Shown piece by piece: positions 5,367 through 25,706 of a stretch of DNA of 64,000 nt. Each line of letters opens with the position of its first letter. Within the stretch, counting starts at the first letter, position 1. Made by a program: the position numbers and the translations under genes. Below the pieces are notes generated by a model. The model did not search any database. It was not told the origin of the DNA and saw only the letters and a list, made by a program, of their open reading frames with translations. The DNA comes from Oscillatoria sp. FACHB-1406 (GTDB lineage Bacteria; Cyanobacteriota; Cyanobacteriia; Cyanobacteriales; Spirulinaceae), in NCBI RefSeq assembly GCF_014698145.1, contig NZ_JACJSM010000015.1, positions 1-64,000 of the forward strand, read 5' to 3'.

Positions 5367-6035
5367 ATGAATTATAAAACGCCTAAAGGTTTAATTGTTT
5401 CCTGCCAAGCCCCTGTCGATTCTCCCTTACACCATCCTGTTGTGATTGCAGCGATGGCACAAGCAGCAGTAAGGGGAGGTGCAACGGGCGTTCGTATCGA
5501 TACTCCCGCGCACGTTCGAGCCGTTCGAGAACGATTGCCCGAGACGTTAATTATTGGGCTGTGGAAACAACAAATTCCGGGTTACGAAACCTATATTACG
5601 CCAAGATTTGAAGATGCAGCCGCGATCGCAGCAGCCGGAGCCGATATCATTGCGATTGATGCAACCTTGCGCCCCCGTCCTAATGGAGAAACCGTAGCAA
5701 CTCTCATCCCGCGCATTCACCAGGAATTAGGTAAGTTAGTGATGGCGGATGCCGATACCCTCGAAGGTGCAGAACAGGCGATCTCAGCGGGTGCTGATTG
5801 GGTGGGTACAACGCTAGTCGGTTACACGCGCGAAACTCAGCATCTCACGCCGCCCGGTTGGGAACTCCTCAGTCAATTGGCAGCCGAAGTGAAAATTCCG
5901 GTGATTTGCGAGGGAGGAATTACCGATCCGGACATGGCAAAAACGGCTTTAGAATTAGGGGCTAATGCTGTTGTTATCGGCGGTGCAATCACGGGAATCG
6001 ATCTCAAAATTCAAGCATTTCAAAAAGTGTTTTAA
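5367..6035 (+). CDS. nanE: N-acetylmannosamine-6-phosphate 2-epimerase (NanE family)
   Basis: TIM-barrel epimerase predicted to convert ManNAc-6-P to GlcNAc-6-P. The 222-residue protein begins MNYKTPKGLIVSCQAP. It shows GLWKQQIPGYETYITP, IIAIDATLRPRP, VMADADTLEGA and the C-terminal phosphate-binding EGGIT...GANAVVIGGAIT motifs typical of NanE. No other sialic-acid catabolic gene is adjacent. There is no Shine-Dalgarno because the heptamer array runs up to the ATG, and the first codons ATG AAT TAT look repeat-derived. Confidence 0.88.
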   Translation: MNYKTPKGLIVSCQAPVDSPLHHPVVIAAMAQAAVRGGATGVRIDTPAHVRAVRERLPETLIIGLWKQQIPGYETYITPRFEDAAAIAAAGADIIAIDATLRPRPNGETVATLIPRIHQELGKLVMADADTLEGAEQAISAGADWVGTTLVGYTRETQHLTPPGWELLSQLAAEVKIPVICEGGITDPDMAKTALELGANAVVIGGAITGIDLKIQAFQKVF

Positions 6036-6133
6036 ATGATGAATGATGAGTGATAAATGGGGGAATTACGAATGATGAGTGATGAACTACGAATTACGAA
6101 TTACGAATTACGAATTACGAATTACGAATTACA
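6036..6133. repeat. Heptamer-type repeat block downstream of nanE
   Basis: After the nanE stop come ATGATGAATGATGAGTG-type units and then six or more AATTACG units, ending near 6133. It is the same family as the array between murF and nanE, so nanE is bracketed by these repeats. Confidence 0.8.
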
Positions 6134-6193
6134 ACATTCTGCTATATAAATTTAATTCTTAGGTTCGCTAGAATCCGATTCCCCATTCTCCTC

Positions 6194-7381
6194 CTAAGAT
6201 TGCCGCGCACTCGACTTCCACTCCTCCAAAGATTCAGCAATGACAGCTTGAATCAGCAGCATTCCTAAAACCTCTAAATCCCCAATTTGACCAATTCGCT
6301 CTCGCAATTCTACGGCAATTTCTCCAAAACGAACTTCCAGAATGCGAAGCAGATCTTCTTGTCTTTGCCTTCTTTGACCTTCCTGAAATCTCTTTTCCAA
6401 CTCCGTCGGCTCTGCGTCCGATTCGAGCGTTTCAACTTCTGCCGACAACACCGATTCAAACACATCTAGTGATTGAGTCGTCACCGCTTGAACCAAAAGC
6501 ATCTCGAGAACTTCCAAATCCTTAACAGCACCAACTCGCTCTCGTAATTGTGCCGGAATCTCTTCAAAACGAACCTCCAAAATGCGAAGAATATCTCTCT
6601 GCCCCTTCGTTATTTGACCTTCCTGCAATCCTTCTTGTCGTCCCTTTTCAATCCCGAACCGCTCGACACTGGTGATGTAAGGCATTTCCCTCTCCTTCTC
6701 TAAACTCTCCATTTCTTTCCACAAACGCCGTTCCTCAGTCCTTGGCAAGGCAATCAACCAATCAATCAATCGAAACAACTCGACAATATCCTGGCGGCTG
6801 AGTCCTCGTTGATAGAGACTTTTGACCAGTGCGAGCTTGTTTTCGTAGCCACTTTGAGGATTTTGACTCATCCGTTGTGCGGCGCGGTGGGCTTGCACGA
6901 TCGCGGCAAACGGATTAGGGTTATCGGCTAACTCTTTCTCATTGTAATCAAGCAGTTTAACGATGGGAAATTCTAACCTCGAACGACATCCCCACAGTTC
7001 CCTCTCGTAACAATTCGGTCGCCAAGAGGGTTGCTCGTCGGCTAATACGCCTAAACTGACGACGGGACGACGATAAGTATCGAAAATCCGCCCGTTGTAG
7101 AGGTACATCCGCTCGGCGAACTCCGATTGTTGCTGCGATTGGACTTCGATATGAACTAGAACCCAGGTTTCTTCGCCGTTCTGTCGCCAGACTTTGACCA
7201 GTTTATCTGCCTCTCGTCTGCCGGTTTTAGTCTCGCGTTTAATTTGCTGGAGTTCGGTATCGAGAAATTCAAAACCGTGCTGCCAGTTAATACCAGCTTC
7301 GATGGAAGGGAAGAAAAAGCGCAAAAAGTCCTGAAAGTAGAGCGAGATGGCTTCTTTCCAGGGCGAATCGTAATCGGTCAT
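6194..7381 (-). CDS. PD-(D/E)XK (Rpn/PDDEXK) family protein with two tandem DUF4351 domains
   Basis: This 395-residue protein resembles the cyanobacterial Rpn-like transposase/nuclease group. The N-terminal half holds a PD-(D/E)XK-type core (EADKLVKVW followed by VLVHIEVQSQ, roughly residues 55-85). The C-terminal half carries two copies of the DUF4351 unit: ILRILEVRFEEIPAQLRER and, about 80 residues later, LLRILEVRFGEIAVELRER, each followed by DLEVL-MLL-QAV. A charged linker separates the copies. Most family members carry one DUF4351, so this looks like an internal duplication. Substrate and role are unknown. Confidence 0.8.
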   Translation of the reverse strand: MTDYDSPWKEAISLYFQDFLRFFFPSIEAGINWQHGFEFLDTELQQIKRETKTGRREADKLVKVWRQNGEETWVLVHIEVQSQQQSEFAERMYLYNGRIFDTYRRPVVSLGVLADEQPSWRPNCYERELWGCRSRLEFPIVKLLDYNEKELADNPNPFAAIVQAHRAAQRMSQNPQSGYENKLALVKSLYQRGLSRQDIVELFRLIDWLIALPRTEERRLWKEMESLEKEREMPYITSVERFGIEKGRQEGLQEGQITKGQRDILRILEVRFEEIPAQLRERVGAVKDLEVLEMLLVQAVTTQSLDVFESVLSAEVETLESDAEPTELEKRFQEGQRRQRQEDLLRILEVRFGEIAVELRERIGQIGDLEVLGMLLIQAVIAESLEEWKSSARQS

Positions 7382-7443
7382 CGGTAGACGTTCGAGACTG
7401 CGACCTTTACTCTACTCTATGTTGTGCTAGAAATTTAATTTCG

Positions 7444-7698
7444 AGCGATCGCGTCCTACGATAATGCCCTGAAATACAAACCGAACTTGCACAAAGCTTG
7501 ATACAATCGGGGGAATTCTCTGGTCGATTTAGGACGCTACGAAGAAGCGATCGCGCCCTGGAAAACCTGCAACAGGCGATCGCGCTTAACCCCGAAAAGT
7601 ATCGCGAAATGGCAAAAGCCGATACCGATTTCGGCAGTCTTCGCGGAGACAAACGGTTTCAGTCGTTGCTTGAAGGTCGTCTCGGCTTGAATTTTTAG
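7444..7698 (+). pseudogene. Remnant of a TPR-repeat protein (nonsense and frameshift)
   Basis: Translation in successive frames gives a TPR pattern. ASYDNALKYKPNLHKA is followed by a TGA where Trp is expected, then YNRGNSLVDLGRYEEAIA. A frame change leads to ALENLQQAIALNPEKYREMAK and the ending DTDFGSLRGDKRFQSLL, typical of cyanobacterial TPR protein C-termini. The upstream part of the gene is missing, so it is a decayed 3' fragment. Confidence 0.65.
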
Positions 7699-7727
7699 AC
7701 TGGATTGAAAGCGAATTCAAGGAGTCA

Positions 7728-8681
7728 ATGGAGTTTTCGCAATTAGTCGGACAAGAGCGAGCGATTGAGTTATTGGAACGCGCGATCGCAACTCAGCGGA
7801 TTGCTCCAGCCTACCTCTTCGCAGGGCCGGACGGCGTAGGACGACAGTTAGCAGCACGAGCTTTTAGTAACCTCCTCCTCACTCCCCAGCACCAAGACAA
7901 TCGAGAGAAACACCGCACAACGAACAATCATCCCGATTTTATGGGGGTAGAACCGACTTATCTGCATCAAGGCGAACGGATTACCGCAGCAGAAGCAGCA
8001 GAAATGGGGGTGAAACGTCGAGCAAACCCGCAAATTCGCATCGAACAAATTCGGGAAATTGCAGAATTTTTAAGCCGTCCGCCGTTGGAAGCGGTGCGGG
8101 CAGTTGTGGTTATTGAGGAAGCCCAAGCGATGTCAGAAGCTTCGGCGAATGCGTTGCTCAAAACGCTGGAAGAACCGGGGCGAGCGACGTTGATTTTAAT
8201 CGCACCGAGTAGCGAGGCGTTGTTACCGACGTTAGTATCTCGCTGTCAGCGCATCCCGTTCTATCCGCTGGCGGCGGCGCAAGTGCAGCAAGTTCTGGAG
8301 CGTGAGGGGTATGAAGAGATTCTCAGCGCGCCCGAAATTATTGCGATCGCGCAGGGTTCCCCCGGAGCCGCAATTTCGGCTTGGCAACAGTTACAGGCGA
8401 TTCCCAGCGATTTGCTGCAAAGTTTAATCGAGCGACCCGATCGCGCCCTACAAGCCTTAGAATTGGCAAAAGCGATCGATAAAATGCTTGACACGGAAAC
8501 ACAATTGTGGTTGATTGATTACCTTCAATTTGCGTATTGGCAGCAGTTCCTCGCCCGGAAGTTAGCGCGACCGCCCTTAGAATTTCTAGAACGATCGCGT
8601 CAAGCTCTGTTATCTTACGCTCAACCCCGTTTAGTTTGGGAAGTTGCGCTGTGCCAGTTAACAGCGATCGCTAAAACCTAA
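7728..8681 (+). CDS. holB: DNA polymerase III subunit delta' (HolB)
   Basis: Clamp-loader subunit that helps load the beta clamp during replication. The 317-residue protein begins MEFSQLVGQERAIELL. It carries a degenerate Walker A (GPDGVGRQ, 33-40; Arg in place of Lys), NHPDF...VEPTYLH, the LLKTLEEPG motif and SRCQRIPFYPL. Loss of the P-loop lysine fits a non-ATP-hydrolysing delta' subunit. No Zn-binding cysteine cluster is seen. It ends 14 bp before pgeF, suggesting cotranscription. Confidence 0.88.
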   Translation: MEFSQLVGQERAIELLERAIATQRIAPAYLFAGPDGVGRQLAARAFSNLLLTPQHQDNREKHRTTNNHPDFMGVEPTYLHQGERITAAEAAEMGVKRRANPQIRIEQIREIAEFLSRPPLEAVRAVVVIEEAQAMSEASANALLKTLEEPGRATLILIAPSSEALLPTLVSRCQRIPFYPLAAAQVQQVLEREGYEEILSAPEIIAIAQGSPGAAISAWQQLQAIPSDLLQSLIERPDRALQALELAKAIDKMLDTETQLWLIDYLQFAYWQQFLARKLARPPLEFLERSRQALLSYAQPRLVWEVALCQLTAIAKT

Positions 8682-11703: not shown

Positions 11704-12228
11704 ATGAACGATAGTCCGACGAGCGCCGCTGCCCACAGCCAGTTGATGGCGCAATACAACCAGTGGATGAACTCCCGCTTGTATGAGCTTTGCGCCACAC
11801 TGCCAGACACAGAACTTCGCAAGGAGCGCGGAGCCTTTTTTAAGTCGATCTACGCCACCCTCAATCATATTGCGTATGGCGACCTCGCTTTTCTGTCTCG
11901 TTTCACGGGCAATCCAAGCGTCGTCCCCGAACCGGGTGACGACCTCTTTGGTACGTTTGATTTGTTGAGGGTGCAGCGTGCAGCGCTGGATCGACGTATT
12001 CTGGTCTGGTCGGAGGCGCTTTCCCCGGCTTGGCTTGCAGAGTCGCTAACGTACACCAGTAAGATTGACGGCAAGACTCGAACGGTTCCAAAGTGGATTC
12101 TAGTCGCGCATATGTTCAATCATCAAACGCACCACCGAGGTCAAGTCACCACACTCCTATCGCAAATGGGTCTAGATATTGGTTCGACTGACATTCCGTT
12201 CATGCCGCAGTTCCAGGCTGATGCCTAA
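11704..12228 (+). CDS. DinB family protein (YfiT/DinB four-helix metal-binding fold)
   Basis: A 174-residue putative thiol S-transferase-type DinB protein. Metal-ligand histidines are placed as in the family: TLNHIAYGD early, and MFNHQTHHRGQVTTLL near the C-terminus. The C-terminal GLDIGSTDIPF motif is common in proteobacterial relatives. The gene has no GCGATCGC site, while most genes of this length nearby have one, which hints at acquisition by transfer but is weak evidence. Biological role unknown. Confidence 0.85.
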   Translation: MNDSPTSAAAHSQLMAQYNQWMNSRLYELCATLPDTELRKERGAFFKSIYATLNHIAYGDLAFLSRFTGNPSVVPEPGDDLFGTFDLLRVQRAALDRRILVWSEALSPAWLAESLTYTSKIDGKTRTVPKWILVAHMFNHQTHHRGQVTTLLSQMGLDIGSTDIPFMPQFQADA

Positions 12229-12258
12229 CCTATTCTTGAAAATGTCCTTACTGTCACC

Positions 12259-14625
12259 CTACGATCGCGAAGCAACTTGTTGCGAAAGTTCCTCTTCCTC
12301 CTCCTCGTCTTCTTCCTCTTCCGCGTCCAAATCCGGCAAATCTTCCGCCTTCTGACTTTCCTTGAGGGAACGACGCTTTTTAGTAGCGCGTAACTTCGGC
12401 GTTTCCGAAAGCAGGACGGCGGTTTCGCTCGCTTCTGCTGGCATCTCGACTAATTCGCTATCATCCACCCCATTAATAACTACGCCTAACAAAGGTAATT
12501 CTGCTTCCACGAAGCGATCGAGCCGAGCGCTAAAAGGCGCTTTCAAGGTTACGCCGGGACGAGCAACTATGACAATACCCTCAACGAGGGGTTCGAGCAG
12601 CATGGCATCGTTGTAGCCCGAGAGAGGCGGCGAATCGACGATGACAAGATCGAAGCGCCCCTTCGCATCGTCGAGCAAGCGTTTGAACTCGCTCGATTCC
12701 AGGACAGCGGCGGCTTTTAGCTGCGGTCCGACTCCTGGAACGATGTAGAGGTTGGCAATGTTGGGAGCCAGTTGGAGGTAGTTGCTGCGGGCGTTGTAGT
12801 AGCTGAGGGGTTCGAGTTGAGCGTCGGGATCGGGTTCGATGCCGAGGGATCGCGCTACGGAAGGAGAGCGCAAATCGGCTTCAATGAGGAGGGTTCGCTT
12901 GCCTGCTTGTGCAGACGCGATCGCCAAATTATAAGCCGTTACCGTTTTTCCTTCATTGCCCATCTCGCTGGTTATCATAATCGTTTTCGCTCCCTTCGCG
13001 CCACTGCGACGCAGATTACTGCGGAAGAGTTCGTAAAAGTGCAAATCCTCTTGATTGTAGGGTTGAAGAATCGGACTAGCTTCGCCCTGCTGATTGAGAT
13101 TAAAAACTAACGGTAACTCTCCGAGCAAGGTGACATCGCGATCGCTTAAAATCCCTTGAATTTCCTTAACCGTATGAACGCGACCATCTAAGAACGAGAA
13201 GGCAAAAATAATTCCACTCGCTACAATCAACCCTGCCACCGTACCGCCCCCAATAGCTAACAGTGGATTAATCCCCCCCTTAACCACGGCAGGCGTTTCC
13301 GTAACGGCGGGCGGCTGGGACACCGTTAAACTCCCCGTCGTTTCTGCCTCCGCCGATTGTGCGTCCACCAACGACGAAAGCATATTGTTATAGAGCGTTT
13401 GCTTGAGTTGTAACTGTTGCTGCAAGCGCGACTTTTCTAACTGATTGCTCGGATAGCGCTCGTACTGCTGCTTCATTTGTTGCTCTTGGCGTTGTAGCGA
13501 TTGCAATTGACTGATTAGCGTATCCCGCTGCGTTCTCAACGTCACTAAATTATTCGCTAACTGCTGTCGTGCCGGATCCAAGCTGCTTTCCTTGCGAATT
13601 TGTCCCGGTAGCGGGGTAAGAACACCCGTTCCCATTAATTCCGTGTAGCGCTCCTGAAGCAGCCGTTCGGTGGATTGCTTTTGTTCGAGCAAGGTTTGTA
13701 TTTGCGGGTGTTCCGGTCGCAACTTCAAGCGCAACGGTTCCATTTGCATTTCAATTTCAAGCAATTTAGAGCGCAGGCTGCTCAAAATCGGGTCGGCACT
13801 CAGCATTGAGGAAGTGTAAGCTTGATCGGGATTCATCCCCAACTGAGAGCTAATACTGGCAATTTGAGCTTGCACTCCCTCTAAAGTAAGCTGCACTTGA
13901 CGCTGCTGTTGTTGCGAAGCGCTAATCCCGGCGAACAGCGTACCATCTTCGGCCGAAGCCATTGCTGCACCCTGTTGGCTGATGAACTGATAGTAGGCTT
14001 TTTCAACAGCTTGTTGGTCGCCTTGAGCTTGAACTAGGCGTTCTTTCAAAGCATCAATCTTGGTTCGCAGCAAAGCCGTATTAATCGCTCGGCTTTGCTT
14101 GACCATTTCCTGCATCAGCAAGTCAACGATCGAGACTGCACTTTTAGCAGCTTCGAGCTTATCTTTAGAAGTATCGCTTTTCGCTGCCTTTTCATACTTA
14201 ACCTCAAATTCAAAGGGTTCTTGCGGGGCTGCTGCGTCTCCTTTCTTTTTTGTGTCTTTAGCTGCGTCTTTACCGCCATCTTTTTTATCGGGAAATTTAA
14301 TTTCAACCTTTTCCTTGAGTTCATCGGGTTTCATCTGCGTTTTGTCCGAGACGGGCTTGAGAACTTGAGGTGAGAGCAAGGTATCTGGAGAAATTGCGAC
14401 CTGTTGACCTTGCTGTTGCAAAGCCTGTCCGGTTTGGGTAAACGTTGGCGGCGGCACGGAGAAGCGAAGTTTGCCTGCTGCCTCGTATTTGGGGGGTGTA
14501 GGTGGTGGCGGCGGTAACATAGAGAGCGCGCCACCCGCACCAACAACCAGTGCAAAACTAATAAGGGCAATGAGTTTGTTTTCGTCGAAGCTAACCGTAA
14601 AACGTTTAACAAGAGGTGAGGTCAT
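12259..14625 (-). CDS. Exopolysaccharide co-polymerase / BY-kinase-like protein (Wzz + ATPase)
   Basis: A 788-residue Wzc-like protein controlling polysaccharide chain length and export. There is an N-terminal membrane segment (about 18-37), then an unusual Lys/Asp-rich insert (KDGGKDAAKDTKKKG) and long coiled-coil helices. A second membrane segment at about 455-475 leads to a C-terminal ATPase with Walker A SEMGNEGKT (K560), Walker A' LLIEADLRSPS and Walker B FDLVIVDSPP. The tail has no tyrosine in the last 117 residues and ends in a Glu/Asp run, so classical Tyr-cluster autophosphorylation is unlikely. It is the last gene of the export operon. Confidence 0.88.
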   Translation of the reverse strand: MTSPLVKRFTVSFDENKLIALISFALVVGAGGALSMLPPPPPTPPKYEAAGKLRFSVPPPTFTQTGQALQQQGQQVAISPDTLLSPQVLKPVSDKTQMKPDELKEKVEIKFPDKKDGGKDAAKDTKKKGDAAAPQEPFEFEVKYEKAAKSDTSKDKLEAAKSAVSIVDLLMQEMVKQSRAINTALLRTKIDALKERLVQAQGDQQAVEKAYYQFISQQGAAMASAEDGTLFAGISASQQQQRQVQLTLEGVQAQIASISSQLGMNPDQAYTSSMLSADPILSSLRSKLLEIEMQMEPLRLKLRPEHPQIQTLLEQKQSTERLLQERYTELMGTGVLTPLPGQIRKESSLDPARQQLANNLVTLRTQRDTLISQLQSLQRQEQQMKQQYERYPSNQLEKSRLQQQLQLKQTLYNNMLSSLVDAQSAEAETTGSLTVSQPPAVTETPAVVKGGINPLLAIGGGTVAGLIVASGIIFAFSFLDGRVHTVKEIQGILSDRDVTLLGELPLVFNLNQQGEASPILQPYNQEDLHFYELFRSNLRRSGAKGAKTIMITSEMGNEGKTVTAYNLAIASAQAGKRTLLIEADLRSPSVARSLGIEPDPDAQLEPLSYYNARSNYLQLAPNIANLYIVPGVGPQLKAAAVLESSEFKRLLDDAKGRFDLVIVDSPPLSGYNDAMLLEPLVEGIVIVARPGVTLKAPFSARLDRFVEAELPLLGVVINGVDDSELVEMPAEASETAVLLSETPKLRATKKRRSLKESQKAEDLPDLDAEEEEDEEEEEELSQQVASRS

Positions 14626-16274: not shown

Positions 16275-17018
16275 CTACTTCTGATTTTTCGGATTCCGCG
16301 TTGCCGCGATCGCCGTTTCGTGGACTTGTTGGGCTAAAGTTGCCATTTTGTCTCGAACCGGGGCAATTTCGGCAAGCGGCGCGATCGGCATTTGGATGCT
16401 AATCGCGATCCACGGTTGGCGATATCCGCGCAATTGCGCGCTTTGGTCGGCGGCGAACCAGGCGGCGGGGTTGGGGTTGCCGCCCTCGGGCCAAGCGTAC
16501 CATTGAGCGACGGCAAAGGTAGCGCGATCGCTCCAGGCTCGGAAGAAGCGCGTTTCGATGGGAATCTTGCCTTTTTCGCTTTCTACTTCAAATTTTAACG
16601 AACTGCGAGAATCGGTTTTCCAGCGATCGAGTCCTTTAATATCCACCCAATCGATTTCGGGTTGAGCTTTAGGGTCGTTTTGCGGTCGTAGTAGCAAGAT
16701 AATCGGTTTGCTGGCGGGATCGGTGTTGGCTTCGGGTTGAATTTTTTGAACGAACCATTTGTGTCCCCCGATACTCGCTTGTTCTCCCTCTAGGGTTTTC
16801 CATCCGGGAACGGAAAGTCCCGTTGTCGTCAACTGTCTGAGTTGCGCGAGGTTTTCCACGGGAAGGGGTTTTTTCCAAGTCCATTTCCCGCTTAAGTAGT
16901 GGGGAACTGCACCGATGGCGAGAATGAGTAGGAAGAGGGCGATTAGGGCAATGCGAGCGATGCGCGATCGCGTTACGGATTGAGAGGGGCGAGCGACTTC
17001 AACGGTGTTAGAACTCAT
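16275..17018 (-). CDS. Cyanoexosortase system-associated protein
   Basis: A 247-residue protein with one N-terminal membrane segment (about 22-43) and a periplasmic domain (GWKTLEGEQASIGGHKW, WYAWPEGGNPNPAAWF). Its place and size match the partner protein found beside cyanoexosortases, analogous to EpsI-like proteins. Its start overlaps the cyanoexosortase stop by 4 bp (ATGA), indicating translational coupling. Confidence 0.75.
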   Translation of the reverse strand: MSSNTVEVARPSQSVTRSRIARIALIALFLLILAIGAVPHYLSGKWTWKKPLPVENLAQLRQLTTTGLSVPGWKTLEGEQASIGGHKWFVQKIQPEANTDPASKPIILLLRPQNDPKAQPEIDWVDIKGLDRWKTDSRSSLKFEVESEKGKIPIETRFFRAWSDRATFAVAQWYAWPEGGNPNPAAWFAADQSAQLRGYRQPWIAISIQMPIAPLAEIAPVRDKMATLAQQVHETAIAATRNPKNQK

Positions 17019-17953
17019 GGATTTGACTCCTCGGGAGTTTCAGTCGGTTCTGCCACGGGGCTGGGTTCTGGCTGCTCTTTCATGGGTGCGGGGTTGCGAT
17101 CGAAATATTTGATAACTTCGAGCAAAACAACAATTAAACCTAGCATACAAGTCGAGTAAACGTCGCCTCCCCAACCTTCATGCAGCCAAGCAAAGGCCCC
17201 TTCATTCCCCGTACCGTGGAAGTAGGTAAGCAGCGTGTTGCGAACGATATTGCCGGAAATGCTAATCGCGATCGCCCCGAGGAGCAGTAAAATCGTTTTT
17301 CGGCGCGATCGCAGCGTATCAGTCCAGTACAACAGCATTAGCGCCACGTATAAGCTAGTAAAGAGCATTTTTAGTCCCGCGCAGTAGGGCGCAACTTCTA
17401 CCAGTCTTCCCCCCACGGTTAAATAAATCCCTTCGACTTGGACGGGAATCCCGAATTGGATCAAAATAAACCCCGCCATCGTTGCAATGAAGGTTTGTAG
17501 GGGCAGGGTGTAAGGCGCAAGCAGGTAGGGAATGGCGTTGGGTGTGGCTAGGAAAACCAGCAAGAGCGGAAAGGATAGAAGTTTAAAGCCTTCGATTCCT
17601 TTGAGCCAAAGACACAATCCCGCTAAAATGACGGGGAATGATAGGTTCGTCCATTCGCTTAAGCCGGTTAAGTAGAAGATTGTGCCGAGGACGAGAAGGA
17701 AGGCTCCGAGGGGATGGGCGCGATCGCGCAAGCGCTGCCATTTTTTGCGTTTCTCCCAAACAATATAAGCCGCAAGCGGCAACCCGATCAGCCCGTGACT
17801 AAAATATTCGTGTTCGATACTAATGCTTTTGTGAATCCAGCCATCCACCCAATGCAGTAACAGCGGCGCATAGAGGGCAGTTAAGAGGGCCGCGATCGCC
17901 AGATTCAAAAGATTCTGTCGTTCGAGAAACGGTAGGGAGCGTTGACTTTGCAT
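17015..17953 (-). CDS. Cyanoexosortase (probably type B)
   Basis: Integral-membrane cysteine transpeptidase-like enzyme, thought to cleave PEP-CTERM-like sorting signals on exported proteins. The 312-residue protein has about eight hydrophobic segments and the exosortase triad: C191 (VAPYCAGLKMLF), R238 (GNIVRNTLL) and H258 (WLHEGWGG). The C-terminal Pro/Glu-rich tail is cytoplasmic. Assignment to type B rests on neighbours and is less certain than the family. It leads the four-gene minus-strand operon with SLBB and Wzc-like proteins. Confidence 0.85.
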   Translation of the reverse strand: MQSQRSLPFLERQNLLNLAIAALLTALYAPLLLHWVDGWIHKSISIEHEYFSHGLIGLPLAAYIVWEKRKKWQRLRDRAHPLGAFLLVLGTIFYLTGLSEWTNLSFPVILAGLCLWLKGIEGFKLLSFPLLLVFLATPNAIPYLLAPYTLPLQTFIATMAGFILIQFGIPVQVEGIYLTVGGRLVEVAPYCAGLKMLFTSLYVALMLLYWTDTLRSRRKTILLLLGAIAISISGNIVRNTLLTYFHGTGNEGAFAWLHEGWGGDVYSTCMLGLIVVLLEVIKYFDRNPAPMKEQPEPSPVAEPTETPEESNP

Positions 17954-17986: not shown

Positions 17987-19129
17987 TTATAAATTAATAA
18001 TTTCCTGCAAGCACCCTGCTACAGTTTTAACCTGAGTTTCATCCAAACCTGGATACATCGGTAAAGAAATAATTTCTCGCGATAAGGTTTCGGCATTGGG
18101 GAAGTCTCCGGCTTGGTAGCCTAGGAACTGGTAAGCGGGCTGGAGATGGCAGGGAATTGGGTAATGAATGCCGGTTTGAATGCCTGCGGCGGCGAGTTTT
18201 TCTTGTAGGGTTTCTCGCGTCATCGGGCAAGCTTCGCTAACGCGCGCGACATAGAGATGGTAGACGTGGCCGCTACCGGATTCATTGCGAATCGGAGTAA
18301 TCCCGCGATCGCGTAACGGTTCTAGGGCGCGATCGTACTGTTGGGCTGCGGTATTGCGCGCCTGATTCCAAGCGCTAAGGTGCGGCAATTTCACCTTGAG
18401 AATTGCTGCCTGCAACGTATCCAGACGACTATTGGTTCCGGGGTTGACATGAATGTATTTTTGTGTTGCGCCGTAATTTCGATAAGAGCGCATTGTTTTT
18501 GCAACTTGTTCGTCATGGGTAACGAGTGCGCCGCCATCCCCAAAAGCGCCGAGATTCTTACTCGGATAGAAGCTAAAGGCACTCGCTAACCCAATCGAAC
18601 CAGCGAGGTATCCTTCGCGTTTAGCGAGGTGCGCTTGAGCGGAATCTTCAAACACGATAAGATTGTGGTTGCTGGCAAAATCTAGGAGTTGTGCGGGCGA
18701 AACCATTTGTCCGTAAAGATGCACCGGCAGTATCGCTTTGGTTTGCGCCGTTACAACCTTCGCCGCTGCTTCGAGATCGATAAGTGCCGTATCGAGGTGG
18801 CAGTCTACTAAAACGGGGGTTGCCTTAGCTTTGAGAACGCCGATAACGGTTGCGATAAAGGTATTGGTGGGGACGATAACCTCATCGCCCTCGCCAATGC
18901 CGCACGCTTGCAATCCTAGCGCGATCGCGTCCGTTCCGGAAGCCACCCCAACCCCATAACGAACGCCGCACGCCAACGCAAACGCTCGCTCGAAATCGGC
19001 GAGTTCTTCCCCTAACACGAAATTTCCTTGATGGAGAATGGCGCGAACCGCTGCTTCAATTTGAGCTTGAATCGGTTCGTGCTGGAAAGAAAGATCGACA
19101 AACGGGATGTGTATAGAACTTGAGGTCAT
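17987..19129 (-). CDS. DegT/DnrJ/EryC1/StrS family sugar aminotransferase
   Basis: PLP-dependent aminotransferase for nucleotide-sugar amination. The 380-residue protein starts MTSSSIHIPFVDLSFQ; an upstream TTG extension is not favoured. It has GTDAIALGL for PLP phosphate binding, VFEDSAQAH, and the Schiff-base lysine K191 in FYPSKNLGAFGDGGA. The C-terminal GIHYPIPCHLQ and SREIISLPMYPGL motifs are standard. It lies 33 bp upstream of the cyanoexosortase gene, so it may belong to the same polysaccharide locus. Confidence 0.88.
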   Translation of the reverse strand: MTSSSIHIPFVDLSFQHEPIQAQIEAAVRAILHQGNFVLGEELADFERAFALACGVRYGVGVASGTDAIALGLQACGIGEGDEVIVPTNTFIATVIGVLKAKATPVLVDCHLDTALIDLEAAAKVVTAQTKAILPVHLYGQMVSPAQLLDFASNHNLIVFEDSAQAHLAKREGYLAGSIGLASAFSFYPSKNLGAFGDGGALVTHDEQVAKTMRSYRNYGATQKYIHVNPGTNSRLDTLQAAILKVKLPHLSAWNQARNTAAQQYDRALEPLRDRGITPIRNESGSGHVYHLYVARVSEACPMTRETLQEKLAAAGIQTGIHYPIPCHLQPAYQFLGYQAGDFPNAETLSREIISLPMYPGLDETQVKTVAGCLQEIINL

Positions 19130-19285
19130 GAGCGATCGCAAAATGAAAATAATGGAGGTAGCCTGGAGACAAAACTGCCTGTTCCTAGTTTATGCCCGAT
19201 TTTTGGCTGGCTGTCGTCACTCTTAACAATTGCGAGTCACAATAAAAAGAAATATTAGTTGAGCTTAGCTAGCGCGATCGCTGTT

Positions 19286-19716: not shown

Positions 19717-20496
19717 ATGTACGACGAAACTACGCTCGAAATTGAGAATGGGCAAATGAAGAAAAGCGCGATCGATCTCGATTGTGCGAAGCTCTTGCTC
19801 GAGCAGGCGATCGAACCTAACTCCTTAACCGATGAAATCGACGAGTTTTTTAGAGAAGTTGCTGCACTAAAAGGGCAGAATGTCCGCGATACTGTGGAAG
19901 AGATGAGGGTGGGAACCCAAAAATATCTCGATGCAGTTAATACACCTATAGACTACAAAAATGAATTGCCAGAAAATATTCCTTTGTATGTCTCTAAGAT
20001 AGAGAATATTGCTGAAGGTATTGAATCCTGCTGGGATATTTTCTCTCCAGAGACTCAAACTTTTTTTATTTTACTGTCTCACTATTACTATCGTGCTAGG
20101 GAAAGCAATTTTAAGGGTTTGTCTGGATTGACGCTTAAGCTAAAATTGCTGTTACCTTCAATTCGAGTGCGATCGGATTTATATCATCAGTATCGGAACT
20201 CTTTTATTTTGATTCCGCAAGCTGTGGAAAAGTCACTAAAGTTAAGAGATAAAAAAGGGACTTCCAAACTTGCGGAAAGAGCAGCAACTTTATCTCAAAA
20301 AATTAAGATTAATTTGCAGCCCAATTCAACACTAGATTTTGAGTTTGATTTTAAGGGCGAACCCGAATCAATCATCTTATCCCCTGTAGATTGGGAAATT
20401 GTGACTTCCGCTCTTGAAGATTCAGCTGAGCCTAGCGAGCGGTTAAAAGAAGCTATGAAGAAATATTTACAACAGTATAATCCCGAGAGTGCATGA
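19717..20496 (+). CDS. Unknown protein with TacA (DUF1778)-like antitoxin C-terminus
   Basis: A 259-residue protein. The first ~205 residues are not recognised. The last ~45 (ILSPVDWEIVTSALEDSA, then EPSERLKEAMKKYLQQ) resemble the toxin-binding tail of TacA/DUF1778 antitoxins (DW...ALE.PPEP...LK.A). The stop codon overlaps the ATG of a GNAT-toxin fragment (ATGA), as in tacAT operons. The usual ribbon-helix-helix N-terminus is absent, so this may be a fusion of an unrelated N-terminal region to an antitoxin tail. Low Trp/Gly and AT-rich codon use differ somewhat from neighbours. Confidence 0.5.
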   Translation: MYDETTLEIENGQMKKSAIDLDCAKLLLEQAIEPNSLTDEIDEFFREVAALKGQNVRDTVEEMRVGTQKYLDAVNTPIDYKNELPENIPLYVSKIENIAEGIESCWDIFSPETQTFFILLSHYYYRARESNFKGLSGLTLKLKLLLPSIRVRSDLYHQYRNSFILIPQAVEKSLKLRDKKGTSKLAERAATLSQKIKINLQPNSTLDFEFDFKGEPESIILSPVDWEIVTSALEDSAEPSERLKEAMKKYLQQYNPESA

Positions 20497-20618
20497 GATG
20501 GATTTTCTGTCCGATTGACGACCCCAGAGCAATTCGAGAGCAATTTAACTGCGGTGTAACTGATTTAGATGATTACCTGAAGAAGTTGGCTAAACAGAAT
20601 CATAAGATAGCTGCTTAA
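20493..20618 (+). pseudogene. Truncated TacT-like GNAT toxin (N-terminal 41 residues only)
   Basis: The frame opened by the ATGA overlap reads 41 residues. It includes REQFNCGVTDLDDYLKKLAK and QNHK, the conserved N-terminal block of TacT/GNAT toxins. It then ends at TAA without any acetyl-CoA-binding motif. The remainder of the toxin is absent before the convergent gene at 20629. The toxin is therefore probably inactive. Confidence 0.6.
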
Positions 20619-20628
20619 ACTATAAAAT

Positions 20629-21171
20629 TTATTCCAAAACGAGAGAATCTTTGATTTTCGCGATCGCGGCTTTCCCAACCCCGCACTTCTCTTTAGCAAG
20701 AAAAGACAAGCTTTTAATTTTCGTTTTCTCTCGTTGTACGACAATGGCTTTAGCAGCCTTTTTAGGATTAATCGCTTTCAATCCCGCTTTTTGAACCTTC
20801 AAATATTCCAAGACTTCCGCAATCTCTTTCTCTAAAGCAGTCAGGATCGGAACTCTCACGATGTCGCCCGCTTCAACTCGGACGAGATCGAGCATTTCCG
20901 GTTTGATAACAATACACCAAACAAAATCGAGTTTTGCTTGTTTCGCAGCTTGCAAAATTTGAATATTTTGCACCGCTTCATATTTATCCTCGCTTAACAC
21001 TTGAACCATGACTGGGAGAATATTTTTACCCGTTTCCTTCAGTTGTTTTGCAATGTTATTAACAATAACCGGATGAGCATCTGATTTTCCCTTCACGGAC
21101 TTACAAGGAATTCTTAAAACTCGTCCAATCTCAACATCAAGAATTGAATTTTCATCTTCAAAAAGTGCCAT
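20629..21171 (-). CDS. ParB/Srx-like small protein, partner of the ParA fusion
   Basis: A 180-residue protein. Residues about 15-100 match the ParB N-terminal fold pattern: VLRIPCKSVKG, then IAKQLKETGKNILPVMVQVL, then YEAVQNIQILQAAKQAKLDFVWCIVI. The C-terminal basic helix-rich part (KAAKAIVVQREKTKIKSLSFLAKEK) may bind nucleic acid. It starts 3 bp after the ParA-fusion stop, so the pair is one operon. ParB-like DNA binding is inferred, not shown; no centromere-like iterons were recognised nearby. Confidence 0.55.
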   Translation of the reverse strand: MALFEDENSILDVEIGRVLRIPCKSVKGKSDAHPVIVNNIAKQLKETGKNILPVMVQVLSEDKYEAVQNIQILQAAKQAKLDFVWCIVIKPEMLDLVRVEAGDIVRVPILTALEKEIAEVLEYLKVQKAGLKAINPKKAAKAIVVQREKTKIKSLSFLAKEKCGVGKAAIAKIKDSLVLE

Positions 21172-21174
21172 AAT

Positions 21175-22602
21175 TCAATCATCCAAAAAGTGGTGTTGTA
21201 AGAAAATTTCCTCAACTAGCTTATGATATAGCTTAGTGATGGGTGAGTTTTGCCAACAGATAACAGGAGCATTTTTATATTCAGCTAGCTTGGTTTGAGC
21301 ATAAATTGCCAAACGAGTTTTACACTGTTTCCCAATAAAATTCTTTTTTTGAAGCTCTTTTTGAATACATCGTTCTAGTTGAGAAGTTGGGGTTACTCCA
21401 GTAGGACAGTTGCTAAATACTAATCCAAGATTCCAAGGGCCAATATAGAGCTTATCTTGCTGTTCTCGCTTATCTCTAACTGTTTTAGCATCCATTTGAT
21501 ATAAATCTGCGGCATGATGTAACGTTTTTCTACTGTAATCTGATGGAATCAGGAGCGTATCGCAGCCAAACAACATCATAACCATTAGATCGTCTCGTGC
21601 GGGAGAAACATCTATAAAAATGTAATCATAATCTTTTGCAAGTATATCTAGCATCTTTTTTAGAATTTTAACTTTATCTCTTTGAGAAAAGTTGGTCTTA
21701 TCATCTCTAATGTTAACTAAAGTATCTTGTTCTCCGGCTAGAATATCGAGAGAAAATGACTTTTTATCGATAGTCGGAAAAGAACGAGATCCGATGCAAT
21801 GTTTGAGAATAGCACGTGCGTTAGTTGTTTTCCCTGCCTGAAGATCGGTAAAACATTGATATAAACAGTCTTTATGATCTTTAGAATGAATTTGAAACGA
21901 GCGCGTTAAGTCCGTTTGAGTATCGAGATCGATCAAAAGAACTTTTTTTCCCGCTAATGCTAATACTGCACCTAAATTCAAGGTATTCGTTGTCTTAGCT
22001 ACTCCCCCTTTCCGGTTCCAAATAGCAGTAATTAATGCTCTCTTGGGCGCGTTAAAGCAGTGTTCGAGTTGCTGCATTAACTTTGGTATACTGTTTGCTG
22101 TCATTCGTTGCAGGGGTGTGAGCGGCAGCACTAAACCATCAACGCGCCTCCAGAGTTGAAAGAAATCGCCATTGATAACTAAACCGTAGGAAGCGAGGCG
22201 ATTTGGGTGGATATTTGAGTTACTCTTATTCAGATATTGACAAATTCCATTATTGTTATTGGAACCATCGCGATAACCAACCGCTAATCGATACAAGGAA
22301 TTCGGTTGATGGCATAACTTCAGAAAATCCTCATCGGAAGCAGCATTTGCTAAAGCTGCAATTCGTTTTTTGACTTCAACAACTAAAACCGGCGGTTGAG
22401 TTGGATCAGTGAAAATCAGATGGTCGGCTTTTAACCCAGACCCAGTTCCCAAACTAACATTCGATTTTACGAGACCTGTTGAGTAACCGAGTGCCTCAAA
22501 CATAGGCTGTACTAAGTGAAGTTCTATGCCTTGCTCTGAATAATCCAGAGGAATTTGCTTCCACCGATGGACAATCTTTTGATAACGAGCGGGAATAGCC
22601 AT
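21175..22602 (-). CDS. HsdR_N-type nuclease domain fused to a ParA-family ATPase
   Basis: A 475-residue two-domain protein. Residues 1-150 match the N-terminal domain of type I restriction R subunits, a PD-(D/E)XK nuclease fold with D60 (KADHLIF) and E76-V-K78 (VLVVEVKKR). Residues 188-475 are a ParA/MinD-type ATPase with deviant Walker A KGGVAKTT (198-205), LLIDLDTQTDLT (222-233) and Walker B FIDVSP (329-334). The catalytic residues of both domains are present. It lies downstream of alaS but behind a terminator hairpin. Partition, regulation or defence are all possible. Confidence 0.75.
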   Translation of the reverse strand: MAIPARYQKIVHRWKQIPLDYSEQGIELHLVQPMFEALGYSTGLVKSNVSLGTGSGLKADHLIFTDPTQPPVLVVEVKKRIAALANAASDEDFLKLCHQPNSLYRLAVGYRDGSNNNNGICQYLNKSNSNIHPNRLASYGLVINGDFFQLWRRVDGLVLPLTPLQRMTANSIPKLMQQLEHCFNAPKRALITAIWNRKGGVAKTTNTLNLGAVLALAGKKVLLIDLDTQTDLTRSFQIHSKDHKDCLYQCFTDLQAGKTTNARAILKHCIGSRSFPTIDKKSFSLDILAGEQDTLVNIRDDKTNFSQRDKVKILKKMLDILAKDYDYIFIDVSPARDDLMVMMLFGCDTLLIPSDYSRKTLHHAADLYQMDAKTVRDKREQQDKLYIGPWNLGLVFSNCPTGVTPTSQLERCIQKELQKKNFIGKQCKTRLAIYAQTKLAEYKNAPVICWQNSPITKLYHKLVEEIFLQHHFLDD

Positions 22603-22636
22603 AAATAAAATGTGGTAGAAGAAAAATCAAAAAGAA

Positions 22637-22659
22637 AGGGCAAGCTTTCTGCCTGCCCT
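22637..22659 (-). terminator. Rho-independent terminator of alaS
   Basis: On the minus strand a hairpin with AGGGCA/TGCCCT arms (inner GC/GC pairs) is followed by TTCTTTTTGATTTTT. It lies 6 bp past the alaS stop and before the ParA-fusion start, separating the two transcripts. Confidence 0.65.
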
Positions 22660-22665
22660 CTAATG

Positions 22666-25311
22666 TTACTTCAATCCTTCCCTTAACTGCCCCTTAGCAA
22701 ACTCCAAAGCTTCGGGTAACTTACTCGCATCGCGTCCCCCCGCTTGGGCTAAGTTCGGTCGTCCGCCGCCGCCGCCGCCGCATAGTTTGGCGATTTCACC
22801 GATAAATTTTCCGGCTTGTAGCTTCTTATCTTTATTCACTTTCGGACTGAAAGCTGCGACTAAACTTACCTTCCCAGCTTCGGGAACGGAGGCGAGAACA
22901 ACGGCGCTTTCACCCAATTTTTGCTGCAACCGTTCGGCAGCAGTTTTCAAACTTTCGGGATCTGCGCCTTCCATTTGCGCGACTAAAAGTTTATAGTCAC
23001 CGATGCTTTCTGCTGCTTCTAACAACCGTTCGGACTGACTCAATGCCAGTTGTTTTTTTACCTCTTCTAGTTCCTTCTGCGTTGCTTTTAATTCGGCTTG
23101 CAATTTATTAACGCGTTCGGTAACTTCTTCCGGTTGGACTTTGAAGCGATCGCTCAATTCCCGGACGACTTTATCGCGCACGTTGAGGTAATCTAAGATC
23201 GCAGGCCCCGCAACGGCTTCGATACGCCGCACGCCCGACGATATCCCCGCTTCGGAGATAATCTTAAACGCGCCAATTTCTGCCGTATTCTCCACGTGAG
23301 TGCCGCCGCATAGTTCCATCGATACGCCGGGGAAGTCAATCACGCGCACTTCGCTGCCGTACTTTTCGCCGAACATCGCGATCGCGCCCTTGGTTTTTGC
23401 CTCTTCAATCGGCATAATATTAACCTCGGCGGCGTGCGACTCGGAAATCCAAGCGTTCACCAACTCTTCGATCTGCTGCAATTCGTCGGCTGTCACCGGA
23501 CGCGGTAAATTAAAGTCAAACCGCAAGCGATCGAACGCGACTAAGGAACCCGCCTGCGAGACGGACTCATCGACAATCTTCTTCAAAGCGGCTTGTAACA
23601 GGTGCGTTGCGGTATGATTGGCTTGCAAGCGACGACGACAAGCGCGATCGATTTGGGCGGTGACGACATCGCCGATTTGCAAGCTGCCGCGATCGATGCG
23701 TCCTTCGTGAATGAACAGATTTGAGGCTTTTTGTACGTCCTCAATGCGAATCAGTAGGTTATCGCCGCTTAAGTAGCCTTTATCGCCGATTTGTCCGCCG
23801 GATTCTGCATAGAATGGCGTTTTATCGAGGATAACGCGCACTTCCGTTCCGGCTTCTGCGGCTTCTACCATCTGCCCATCGACGACAATAGCAGTAATCG
23901 TCGCGATCGCGTGCGGATCGCTGTAACCGAGGAATTCCGTCCCTTGCAAGTCTGTCGAAACGCCGTCGAAGTCTTCGCCGTCGGTCAGATCGATGATTCT
24001 ATAGGCTTTACGGCCGCGATCGCGTTGTTTTTCCATTTCTGCTTCAAAACCGGCGCGATCGACCGTTAAGCCCTGTTCTTCGGCGATTTCTTCAGTCAGT
24101 TCAAACGGAAAACCATAGGTATCAAATAATTTAAACGCATCCGACCCAGAAATTTCGGTTTGATGCAAATTGGCGGCTTGTCCGACGATCTCAGCTAACA
24201 GTTTCTCGCCTCGTTCTAACGTCTTGGTAAACTGCACTTCTTCCCGCTGCAATTCTTCCTTAATTTGCTCGGATTTTTCGCGCACGATCGGGTAAACGGC
24301 TTCTGAGAGTTGAATCGCGGTTTCTGCTACCTTCGCGATGAACTCGCCTTCAATCCCAATTAAACGGCCATGACGAACCACGCGCCGAATCAAACGCCGT
24401 AAAATATAACCGCGCCCTAAATTAGAAGCCCTCACGCCATCAGCAATTAAATGCACGACCGCCCGAACGTGATCCCCGATCACTTTTAAGGAAACTTGGG
24501 TCTTATCGTCGGCTTTGCTGTAATCAATTCCAGCAATTTCTGCGGCAGTTTTAATAATCGGAAAAATGAAATCGGTTTCGTAGTTATTGGGGACGTTTTG
24601 GAGGATTTGCGCCATGCGTTCCAATCCCATCCCGGTATCGATATTTTGGTTTTGCAACGGCGTTAAGTTGCCATCGATATCGCGGTTATATTGCATGAAT
24701 ACCAAGTTATAAAACTCGATAAACCGCGTATCGTCTTCGAGATCGATTTCTTTATCGCCTTTTTCGGGATGAAAATCGTAGTAAATCTCGGAACAAGGGC
24801 CACAAGGGCCGGTTGGGCCGGATACCCAAAAGTTATCGTCCGCACCCATGCGTTGAATGCGATGTTCGGCGATGCCAATTTTGTCGCGCCAAATGGCAAA
24901 GGCTTCGTCATCTTCTTCGTAAACGCTGGGGACGAGACGTTCTGGGGGCAAACCAAAGACTTCGGTGGACAGTTCCCACGCCCACGCGATCGCTTGTTCT
25001 TTAAAATAGTCCCCAAAGCTAAAGTTGCCCAACATCTCGAAAAAGGTGTGGTGGCGCGCCGTGCGTCCGACATTTTCAATATCGTTGGTACGGATGCACT
25101 TCTGCGAGGTGGTGGCGCGGGGGGTAGGGGCAGGTTTTTGCCCGAGGAAGATCGGTTTAAAGGGTAACATCCCCGCGATCGTTAATAAAACGGTGGGATC
25201 TTCCGGGACGAGGGAAGCACTGGGGAGAATTTTGTGCTGCCGTTCGGCGTAGAAATTTAAGAATTTATCGCGAATTTCGCTGCCGCTTAAGTATTGGAGA
25301 GAGTAAGTCAT
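22666..25311 (-). CDS. alaS: Alanyl-tRNA synthetase
   Basis: Class II tRNA synthetase charging tRNA-Ala, about 881 residues from the ATG at 25311; an in-frame ATG 30 bases further upstream is an alternative. It shows the N-terminal aminoacylation core ([40 protein letters not shown]) and the editing-domain motifs HTATHLLQ and CGGTHV. The C-terminal C-Ala region is Gly-rich ([15 protein letters not shown]). Length is normal. Confidence 0.97.
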
Positions 25312-25706
25312 AATTCGTTCGTTGTATATCGTATCGGGCATTCGTTCTATTGTAGACTACCTGTCATCACATTTACTGGCTTCGCACCCATAATCTAAGT
25401 TTCCGGATTGGTTTGCTAGGTTAGCGATCGCGGGGCTTCTTCCAGAGATCGTAAAGACTAGAAAAAAGGCTTTATCGTTCCTCATTTAACTCTGAAGATC
25501 GGTTTTTAGAATACGGATTTTCCGGCTCACGATCTTTGCTGGATATAATTAATCTTGTCAGCTTGAAGCAGGTTAAATCCAAGCTGTATAATTCTCTAAA
25601 AAGTGGGGAGTAAGCATTTTCAACGATTATCCGATCGCGGTGTGAAGAGTTCGGGCTAGATTTCTCGGTTGTTTATCGATCCAATAAAAACGACAATAGA
25701 GAGAGT
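25312..25706. other. Intergenic region alaS / GNAT gene
   Basis: About 390 bp between divergent genes. It is AT-rich near 25540-25600. No tRNA, hairpin with T-run, or convincing open frame was recognised. It presumably carries both promoters. Confidence 0.5.

Follow-up and report, generated by a model that had tools for sequence, protein, structure and literature searches.

Introduction

ParA proteins are familiar for positioning DNA and other cargo, and are not known to act as nucleases. Here, we describe a two-gene module of the cyanobacterium Oscillatoria sp. FACHB-1406, found in a stretch of 64,000 nucleotides (contig NZ_JACJSM010000015.1, positions 1 to 64,000; this whole stretch is referred to as the window), in which a ParA ATPase is fused to an HSDR_N-type nuclease domain and is followed by a partner with a ParB-like fold. 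Among described systems, the module resembles ParABS in having a Soj-type ParA and, in the same operon, a partner of the ParB-CTPase/sulfiredoxin (Srx) fold, and differs from it in that its ParA bears an HSDR_N nuclease, its partner is without the GxRR and ENxQR motifs and ends in a helix-hairpin-helix (HhH) or Rho_N/SAP tail, and no parS is found beside the window pair. With HsdR, HSDR_N and HSDR_N_2 proteins, the nuclease domain shares the motif order E, D, E-x-K, followed by a "YGL..NG" stretch. Unlike in type I restriction-modification, however, it is joined to ParA and not to a superfamily 2 (SF2) helicase, and HsdM and HsdS are absent beside the window module, the neighbors of which are alaS and an antitoxin gene. 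The partner can also be compared with the pNOB8-type ParB, an adaptor with a ParB-like fold from a system that likewise has a ParA, but its tail differs.

A 2025 survey of ParB-CTPase-fold proteins (PMC12704722), in the parts available, used PF02195 at its curated cut-off, and its section 7 names only a ParB-DUF3850 fusion as being consistently beside parA. The fusions it covers resemble the present module in that ParB-fold proteins keep uncommon company and are frequently borne by mobile elements, whereas the plasmid partners of our module fall under the PF02195 cut-off of the survey (tested on six). The cyanophage Mic1 similarly carries ParA and ParB genes in a cyanobacterial element, but there parA (ORF5) and parB (ORF82) lie apart, and the passages concerned mention no nuclease fusion (PMC7156551). 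According to passages of a review, cyanobacteria are without the classical ParA/B/S mechanism (PMC7766704). Whole-word ParA and ParB are absent from the main text, as far as available, of PMC10899382, PMC9978351 and PMC10079941, and we found no published description of the present fusion among the open-licence papers listed by our searches. If our interpretation is correct, DNA movement and DNA cutting would be coupled in a conserved ParA-nuclease that has a partner of the ParB fold, and these pairs, which are common in cyanobacteria and fall under the usual ParB_N cut-off where tested, supply named candidate genes for segregation; if the pair is instead a defense system, its architecture would be new for one.

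Results and Discussion

Architecture of the Fusion Protein

The two-gene set recurs on cyanobacterial chromosomes and plasmids, nearly always with an intact cutting site. The contig to which the window belongs is 130 kb long, in a genome of 5.47 Mb. In the window, the fusion gene (21175–22602, − strand, 475 aa, ATG start) and the partner gene (20629–21171, − strand, 180 aa) are both uninterrupted and are separated by a gap of 3 bases (21172–21174). The original prediction, which was made from the sequence alone, had given these coordinates, the length of 475 aa, the residues D60 and E76-V77-K78, the motif KGGVAKTT (with K203) and the three-base gap, and all are as it stated. The HSDR_N-type PD-(D/E)XK domain comprises residues ∼1–186 and the ParA ATPase residues 187–475; taken separately, the two domains were delimited as residues 1–185 (22048–22602, − strand) and residues 186–475 (21175–22047, − strand).

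The ParA half is identified both by Pfam (AAA_31, E 3.7e-29, residues 191–370) and by an AlphaFold model of the fusion built with 18 sequences (mean pLDDT 92.1, pTM 0.92, with 5 residues below 70), residues 187–471 of which superpose on Soj (8jmj_A) with a Z score of 28.7 and an rmsd of 2.5 over 254 aligned residues, in agreement with the ParA ATPase proposed earlier. Its ParA residues are K198/K203, D225/D227 and D331, and in an alignment of 67 sequences, counting gaps as misses, K198 is conserved in 65, K203 in 66 and D331 in 65.

The corresponding residues of the nuclease half are E23, D60, E76 and K78. This N-terminal part gives no Pfam match up to E 1 in the window fusion, and its fold is assigned from profiles, from the order of the E23/D60/E76-x-K78 motif, and from the succession of helices and strands in the model. 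The cyanobacterial fusions form three clades, A, B and C, of which clade B has the longer partners. Against a set of seven HSDR_N_2 proteins from related genomes, the N-terminal profile of clade A scored E 2.3e-7 (Prob 93.5), and against six HsdR N-termini it scored E 2.7e-5 (Prob 74), whereas control profile–profile comparisons gave E 0.02–0.7. The clade B and C profiles likewise matched the HSDR_N_2 set (E 7.5e-13 and 4e-8, respectively); against the HsdR set they gave E 4e-4, which is weak, and 0.03, which is not significant, and this counts against an assignment to HSDR_N. The N-domain of clade A in turn matched those of clades B and C with E 7.5e-22 and 6.4e-9. Among nine clade A and B members scanned with Pfam, three match HSDR_N_2 (best E 1.4e-5) and two match HSDR_N, and two of four clade C members lie above the HSDR_N_2 cut-off (27.0 and 27.7 bits vs 25). 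An hmmsearch of the N-domain profile against PDB sequences yielded no credible match (best E 0.65), and Foldseek and VIA-align searches with the full fusion model gave only ParA-type folds among the matches listed, because the ParA half fills the list. The comparisons with the HSDR_N_2 and HsdR sets and the matches of the relatives thus uphold the HSDR_N-type nuclease domain of the original prediction, and a spurious nuclease call is ruled out by the profile–profile match with its controls. Over 153 pairs of clade A sequences, the mean identity is 0.506 in the nuclease part and 0.505 in the ParA part, such that neither is conserved more than the other.

The Partner Protein

The window partner itself matches no Pfam family. 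Among eight partners scanned, ParB_N matches five (best E 0.0033), Rho_N three and SAP two, and of the six plasmid partners, PF02195 is detected in four, none of them above the cut-off, and is undetected in two. The predicted structure of the window partner (mean pLDDT 87.6) contains a ParB/sulfiredoxin fold at residues ∼14–105, followed by a ComEA-like HhH tail at residues ∼105–180. Residues 17–105 align with Myxococcus xanthus ParB (7bnk_A) with a Z score of 12.2 and an rmsd of 2.8 over 86 residues, and the partner also matches sulfiredoxin (6ky4, Z 10.1) and the N-domain of the pNOB8-type ParB (5k5d_A, Z 7.7). These matches to ParB and sulfiredoxin structures bear out the earlier suggestion of a ParB/Srx-fold partner. 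Residues 105–180 superpose on ComEA (8dss_B) with a middling Z score of 7.0 (rmsd 2.4, 63 aligned residues, 25% identity), and by sequence the partner is matched by TIGR01259 comE with E 0.0015, far under the cut-off of that model.

Distribution on Chromosomes, Plasmids, and Viral Contigs

Seventeen further full-length cyanobacterial sequences align with the window fusion at 34–54% identity, which, together with the recurrence of the fused frame and of its partner, shows that the fusion is not a chance product. We fetched 40 regions for the wider family (39 chosen by a partner match and one by a ParA match, two of the 40 being the other copies in the window genome), and found the fused frame in 38, with the partner directly behind it in 37 of these; of the two remaining regions, one begins just before the partner, and the other shows a 67-aa partner fragment. 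For clade A, there are five plasmid records (from Nostoc, Pseudanabaena and Leptolyngbya, including two near-identical strains) at 48–53% identity, and genome contigs of cyanobacteria add 19 loci, of which one is partial; loci from other phyla, four in number, match the clade A query in the ParA part only. Across 386 cyanobacterial genomes, the partner profiles match 42 (clade A/B) and 58 (clade C), with 19 shared and a union of 81, an upper figure in that ordinary ParB may account for some of the clade C matches near E 1e-7, and within which the fused ParA is confirmed only where regions were fetched. In 26 of 59 genomes, the window genome included, an HSDR_N_2 match and a ParA match share one open frame (matched by eye from the result rows, with 25 of the 26 above the Pfam cut-off), such that the earlier view of a nuclease on ParA as exceptional does not hold for cyanobacteria.

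In one set of fetched regions, 13 of the 20 contigs are 3–6.8 Mb long and are therefore chromosomes. Five of the 13 clade C regions come from contigs of at least 3 Mb, and a partner is found directly behind the fusion in all 13 (12 of the same family, and one other that is ParB-like by eye). Identity to the first row of the clade C alignment is 55–72% in 11 of the 12 further rows, and 28% in one. One or two extra ParA-like genes of ∼300 aa stand beside the pair in 6 of the 13 regions (L165–L167 and L169–L171), and recurrent neighbors also include an ileS-like gene (3 regions) and a glycosyltransferase-like gene (4 regions). For clades A and B, no third recurrent neighbor gene was found beyond plasmid- or genus-level synteny.

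The window genome contains three fused genes. A clade B pair lies on the same contig as the window module, with its fusion near 102 kb, and the third fused ParA (L003/L125, G000:C2:340801-341520), on another contig, has a broken site (H and R), with no partner found within its 16-kb region. Separately, the genome of Gloeomargaritales cyanobacterium VI4D9 carries a second, broken fusion (L049, 251–709 and 1870–2301, − strand) ∼6 kb from the intact one.

The window protein has no match in the named-phage collection, and the clade C query, which matches 151 records there, covers more than 80% of its length in none of them, the best 20 matches being chiefly to the ParA part. The plasmid collection gives no clade C match at E 1e-40. 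In IMG/VR, the clade A query finds one locus, by a ParA-part match, and the clade C query finds 80 loci. One of these 80, on a 58-kb contig classed as viral (L225, IMGVR_UViG_3300009787_000008), is a complete clade B pair at 5806–7829, with the site intact by eye, near a Rad52/22-like frame and a helix-turn-helix (HTH) frame; a gene annotated Rad52/Rad22 is also close to the pair on the Leptolyngbya plasmid pLBA.

Conservation of the Nuclease Site and Loss of the Partner

Of 65 scorable sequences, which are mostly from clades A and B and include close relatives, 61 have the complete D-E-K set, as do 52 of 55 at 80% identity. The 65 are the 67 non-identical sequences minus two with cut starts, and include three from clade C, one of which is shared with a separate set of 13 clade C sequences, where the D-E-K residues are intact in all 13. 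The four broken sites are those of L044 (N), L045 (K), L099 (G and T) and L125 (H and R). The partner is missing in three of these four, compared to one of the 60 intact-site members (Fisher p 3.8e-4, or 4.6e-3 after merging the sister pair L044/L045). This test covers 64 sequences (L048, with no downstream sequence, was dropped) and treats related sequences as independent, with L025 scored as having a partner despite its short frame, and L042, where the fusion is broken in two frames, scored as having both an intact site and a partner. The sole intact-site member scored without a partner, L021, has another gene, ParB-like by eye, behind its fusion, and L099, which has a broken site and a partner, contradicts the pattern. 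As site loss and partner loss coincide, the cutting site appears to function jointly with the partner, although few independent events underlie this observation.

A Proposed Partition-Type Module with a Nuclease Arm

Taking these data together, we tentatively interpret the pair as a mobile module of two genes that would position DNA in the manner of a partition system and possess a working nuclease arm, the window copy being an accessory insertion behind alaS. From the sequences and predicted structures, this may be its role, and we rank it ahead of a defense system, a chromosomal segregation or unlinking system, and a pair with an idle N-domain, in that order. DNA positioning is suggested by the presence in one operon of a ParA switch and a ParB-fold DNA binder, with no other par genes on two plasmids, and a nuclease arm is added to this interpretation because ordinary partition leaves a selected, partner-linked nuclease unexplained. 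In such a mechanism, the partner would sit on the DNA carrying its gene and bind the ParA dimer, while ATP-bound ParA would coat the nucleoid until the partner triggered hydrolysis, and the replicon would thereby be transported and distributed within the polyploid cell. The partner would also activate or aim the nuclease arm, which would nick or cut DNA during segregation (for example, linked copies), or else DNA free of the module.

The plasmids provide the context for this interpretation. Copies of the pair occur on six plasmids and on one IMG/VR contig. Two of the plasmids, ABRG53g (Pseudanabaena, NZ_AP017567.1, L025; 12.6 kb), which has a replication protein annotated CyRepA1, and pLBA (77.8 kb), encode no AAA_31 protein besides the fusion and no ParB_N protein above the cut-off. 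Nostoc sp. UHCC 0870 holds three co-resident related plasmids that share an integrase-type gene and a gene for a 597-aa protein, and that carry fusion versions 54%, 27% and 26% identical to the window protein; such differing versions on co-resident plasmids are as expected of incompatibility determinants. Finally, ABRG53g contains nine TGTAAC(A/G)G repeats (the TGTAACAG array) at 411–873, immediately beyond the partner region in this circular record, which are a candidate centromere.

A number of points weigh against this interpretation. The same array could be replication iterons, no TGTAAC(A/G)G repeats occur in the 25 kb of pPg_01 examined, and neither a centromere-like repeat nor parS was found beside the window pair. 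The partner frame of ABRG53g (12170–12574) ends at the last base of the record after 134 aa, with the partner tail in another frame at the record start (1–131), such that this partner is either a broken gene or an error at the record joint or in the assembly. Ordinary ParA and ParB are also present on four of the six plasmids, and the CTP-binding motifs GxRR and ENxQR occur in none of 64 distinct partners. The ∼300-aa ParA-like neighbors raise the possibility that the clade C set comprises more than two genes, and it is not obvious why partition would require an active nuclease.

A broader version of the same idea, which we consider doubtful, is that the nuclease-armed ParA/ParB-like system is a segregation machine of many cyanobacterial chromosomes and plasmids and has been missed by standard ParB searches, that its partner works by the HhH and with no CTP clamp, and that its ParA both moves and cuts DNA, for example in unlinking sister copies in polyploid cells or in eliminating competing replicons.

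Alternative Interpretations

The best-surviving alternative, possible but somewhat unlikely in our assessment, is an anti-plasmid or anti-phage defense system, in which foreign or structurally odd DNA would be sensed by the ParB-like/HhH partner and destroyed by the HSDR_N domain, the nuclease of restriction enzymes, with ParA serving as an ATP-dependent switch or loader. This is consistent with a nuclease site that is kept, and lost jointly with the partner, with the patchy distribution and the several copies per genome (as in the three fused genes of the window genome), and with the location of the window pair at a variable spot behind alaS, adjoining a toxin-antitoxin remnant. Some PADLOC models recur among the neighboring proteins at E 1e-8 or better, with AriA, mad3 and mad2 found in 4 of 125 proteins, and PD-T4-6 models in at most 3 of 125 and 2 of 84; these figures come from a scan of 209 of 213 listed proteins (a broken-fusion fragment, a window gene, alaS and one other being left out) that is weak in that it covers the best 25 of 79 and of 138 families, does not assign loci, and has no control regions. 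Recurrent neighbor models are, however, few. The best PADLOC match of the module itself is to PDC-M28B (E 1.1e-4) over residues 190–227 only, followed by a CARF model (E 0.012, residues 286–347), with none for the partner. Further arguments against defense are the strong conservation of clade C, which is unusual for defense genes, and the absence of a methylase or self-mark from the pair.

An unlikely alternative is that clade C represents a chromosomal DNA-organizing or segregation system, from which the mobile clades A and B derive (or the reverse), and in which the nuclease resolves linked sister DNA. The clade C regions on contigs of at least 3 Mb, the partner behind the fusion in all of its regions, and the uniformly intact nuclease sites are in line with such a role, as is the statement, in passages of the review, that cyanobacteria are without the classical mechanism (PMC7766704). 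However, the clade C partner profile is present in only 58 of 386 cyanobacterial genomes, and this therefore cannot be a general segregation system. More unlikely still is an N-domain that serves in DNA binding or autoregulation without any catalysis, corresponding to the winged-helix part of P1 ParA/SopA, within an otherwise ordinary partition or regulator pair: the extra N-terminal DNA-binding part of type Ia ParA is similar in position and size, and the four members without catalytic residues keep their ATPase motifs, but E23, D60, E76 and K78 are kept across three well-separated clades, and decayed sites mostly coincide with partner loss.

The original prediction had also considered a plasmid-derived partition remnant. 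This was rejected for the window copy, where both genes are intact, given that active-site residues are kept family-wide and that members occur widely on large chromosomal contigs, in addition to plasmids.

Genomic Surroundings in the Window

The fusion gene lies downstream of alaS (22666–25341) on the same − strand. Between the two, 3' of alaS and 5' of the fusion gene, there is a terminator-like stem-loop (22635–22661, − strand), a weak call given 4 such sites in the stretch vs 2.3 expected in shuffles, and no sigma-70-like site was found upstream of the fusion gene. None of the 12 relatives with ∼1.5 kb of sequence behind alaS carries the module there (a 13th, L264, ends after 147 bases), which identifies the window copy as an accessory insertion, as the original prediction had placed it.

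On the other side, outside the module, the gene at 19717–20496 (+ strand) encodes a 259-aa protein with a C-terminal TacA1-type antitoxin segment (PF08681, E 4.7e-5), and is followed by a stub of 41 codons (20493–20618, + strand), read from the sequence, the start of which overlaps the stop of the antitoxin gene by 4 bases and which stops ∼10 bases short of the end of the partner gene. This stub resembles the start of a GNAT toxin. The antitoxin gene and stub adjoining the end of the module likely mark an insertion or deletion boundary.

Farther away in the window, two adjoining membrane-protein genes (16275–17953), which look like an exosortase and its companion, stand beside a DegT-type aminotransferase-like gene (17987–19141), and a tyrosine-autokinase-like gene is present at 12259–14625.

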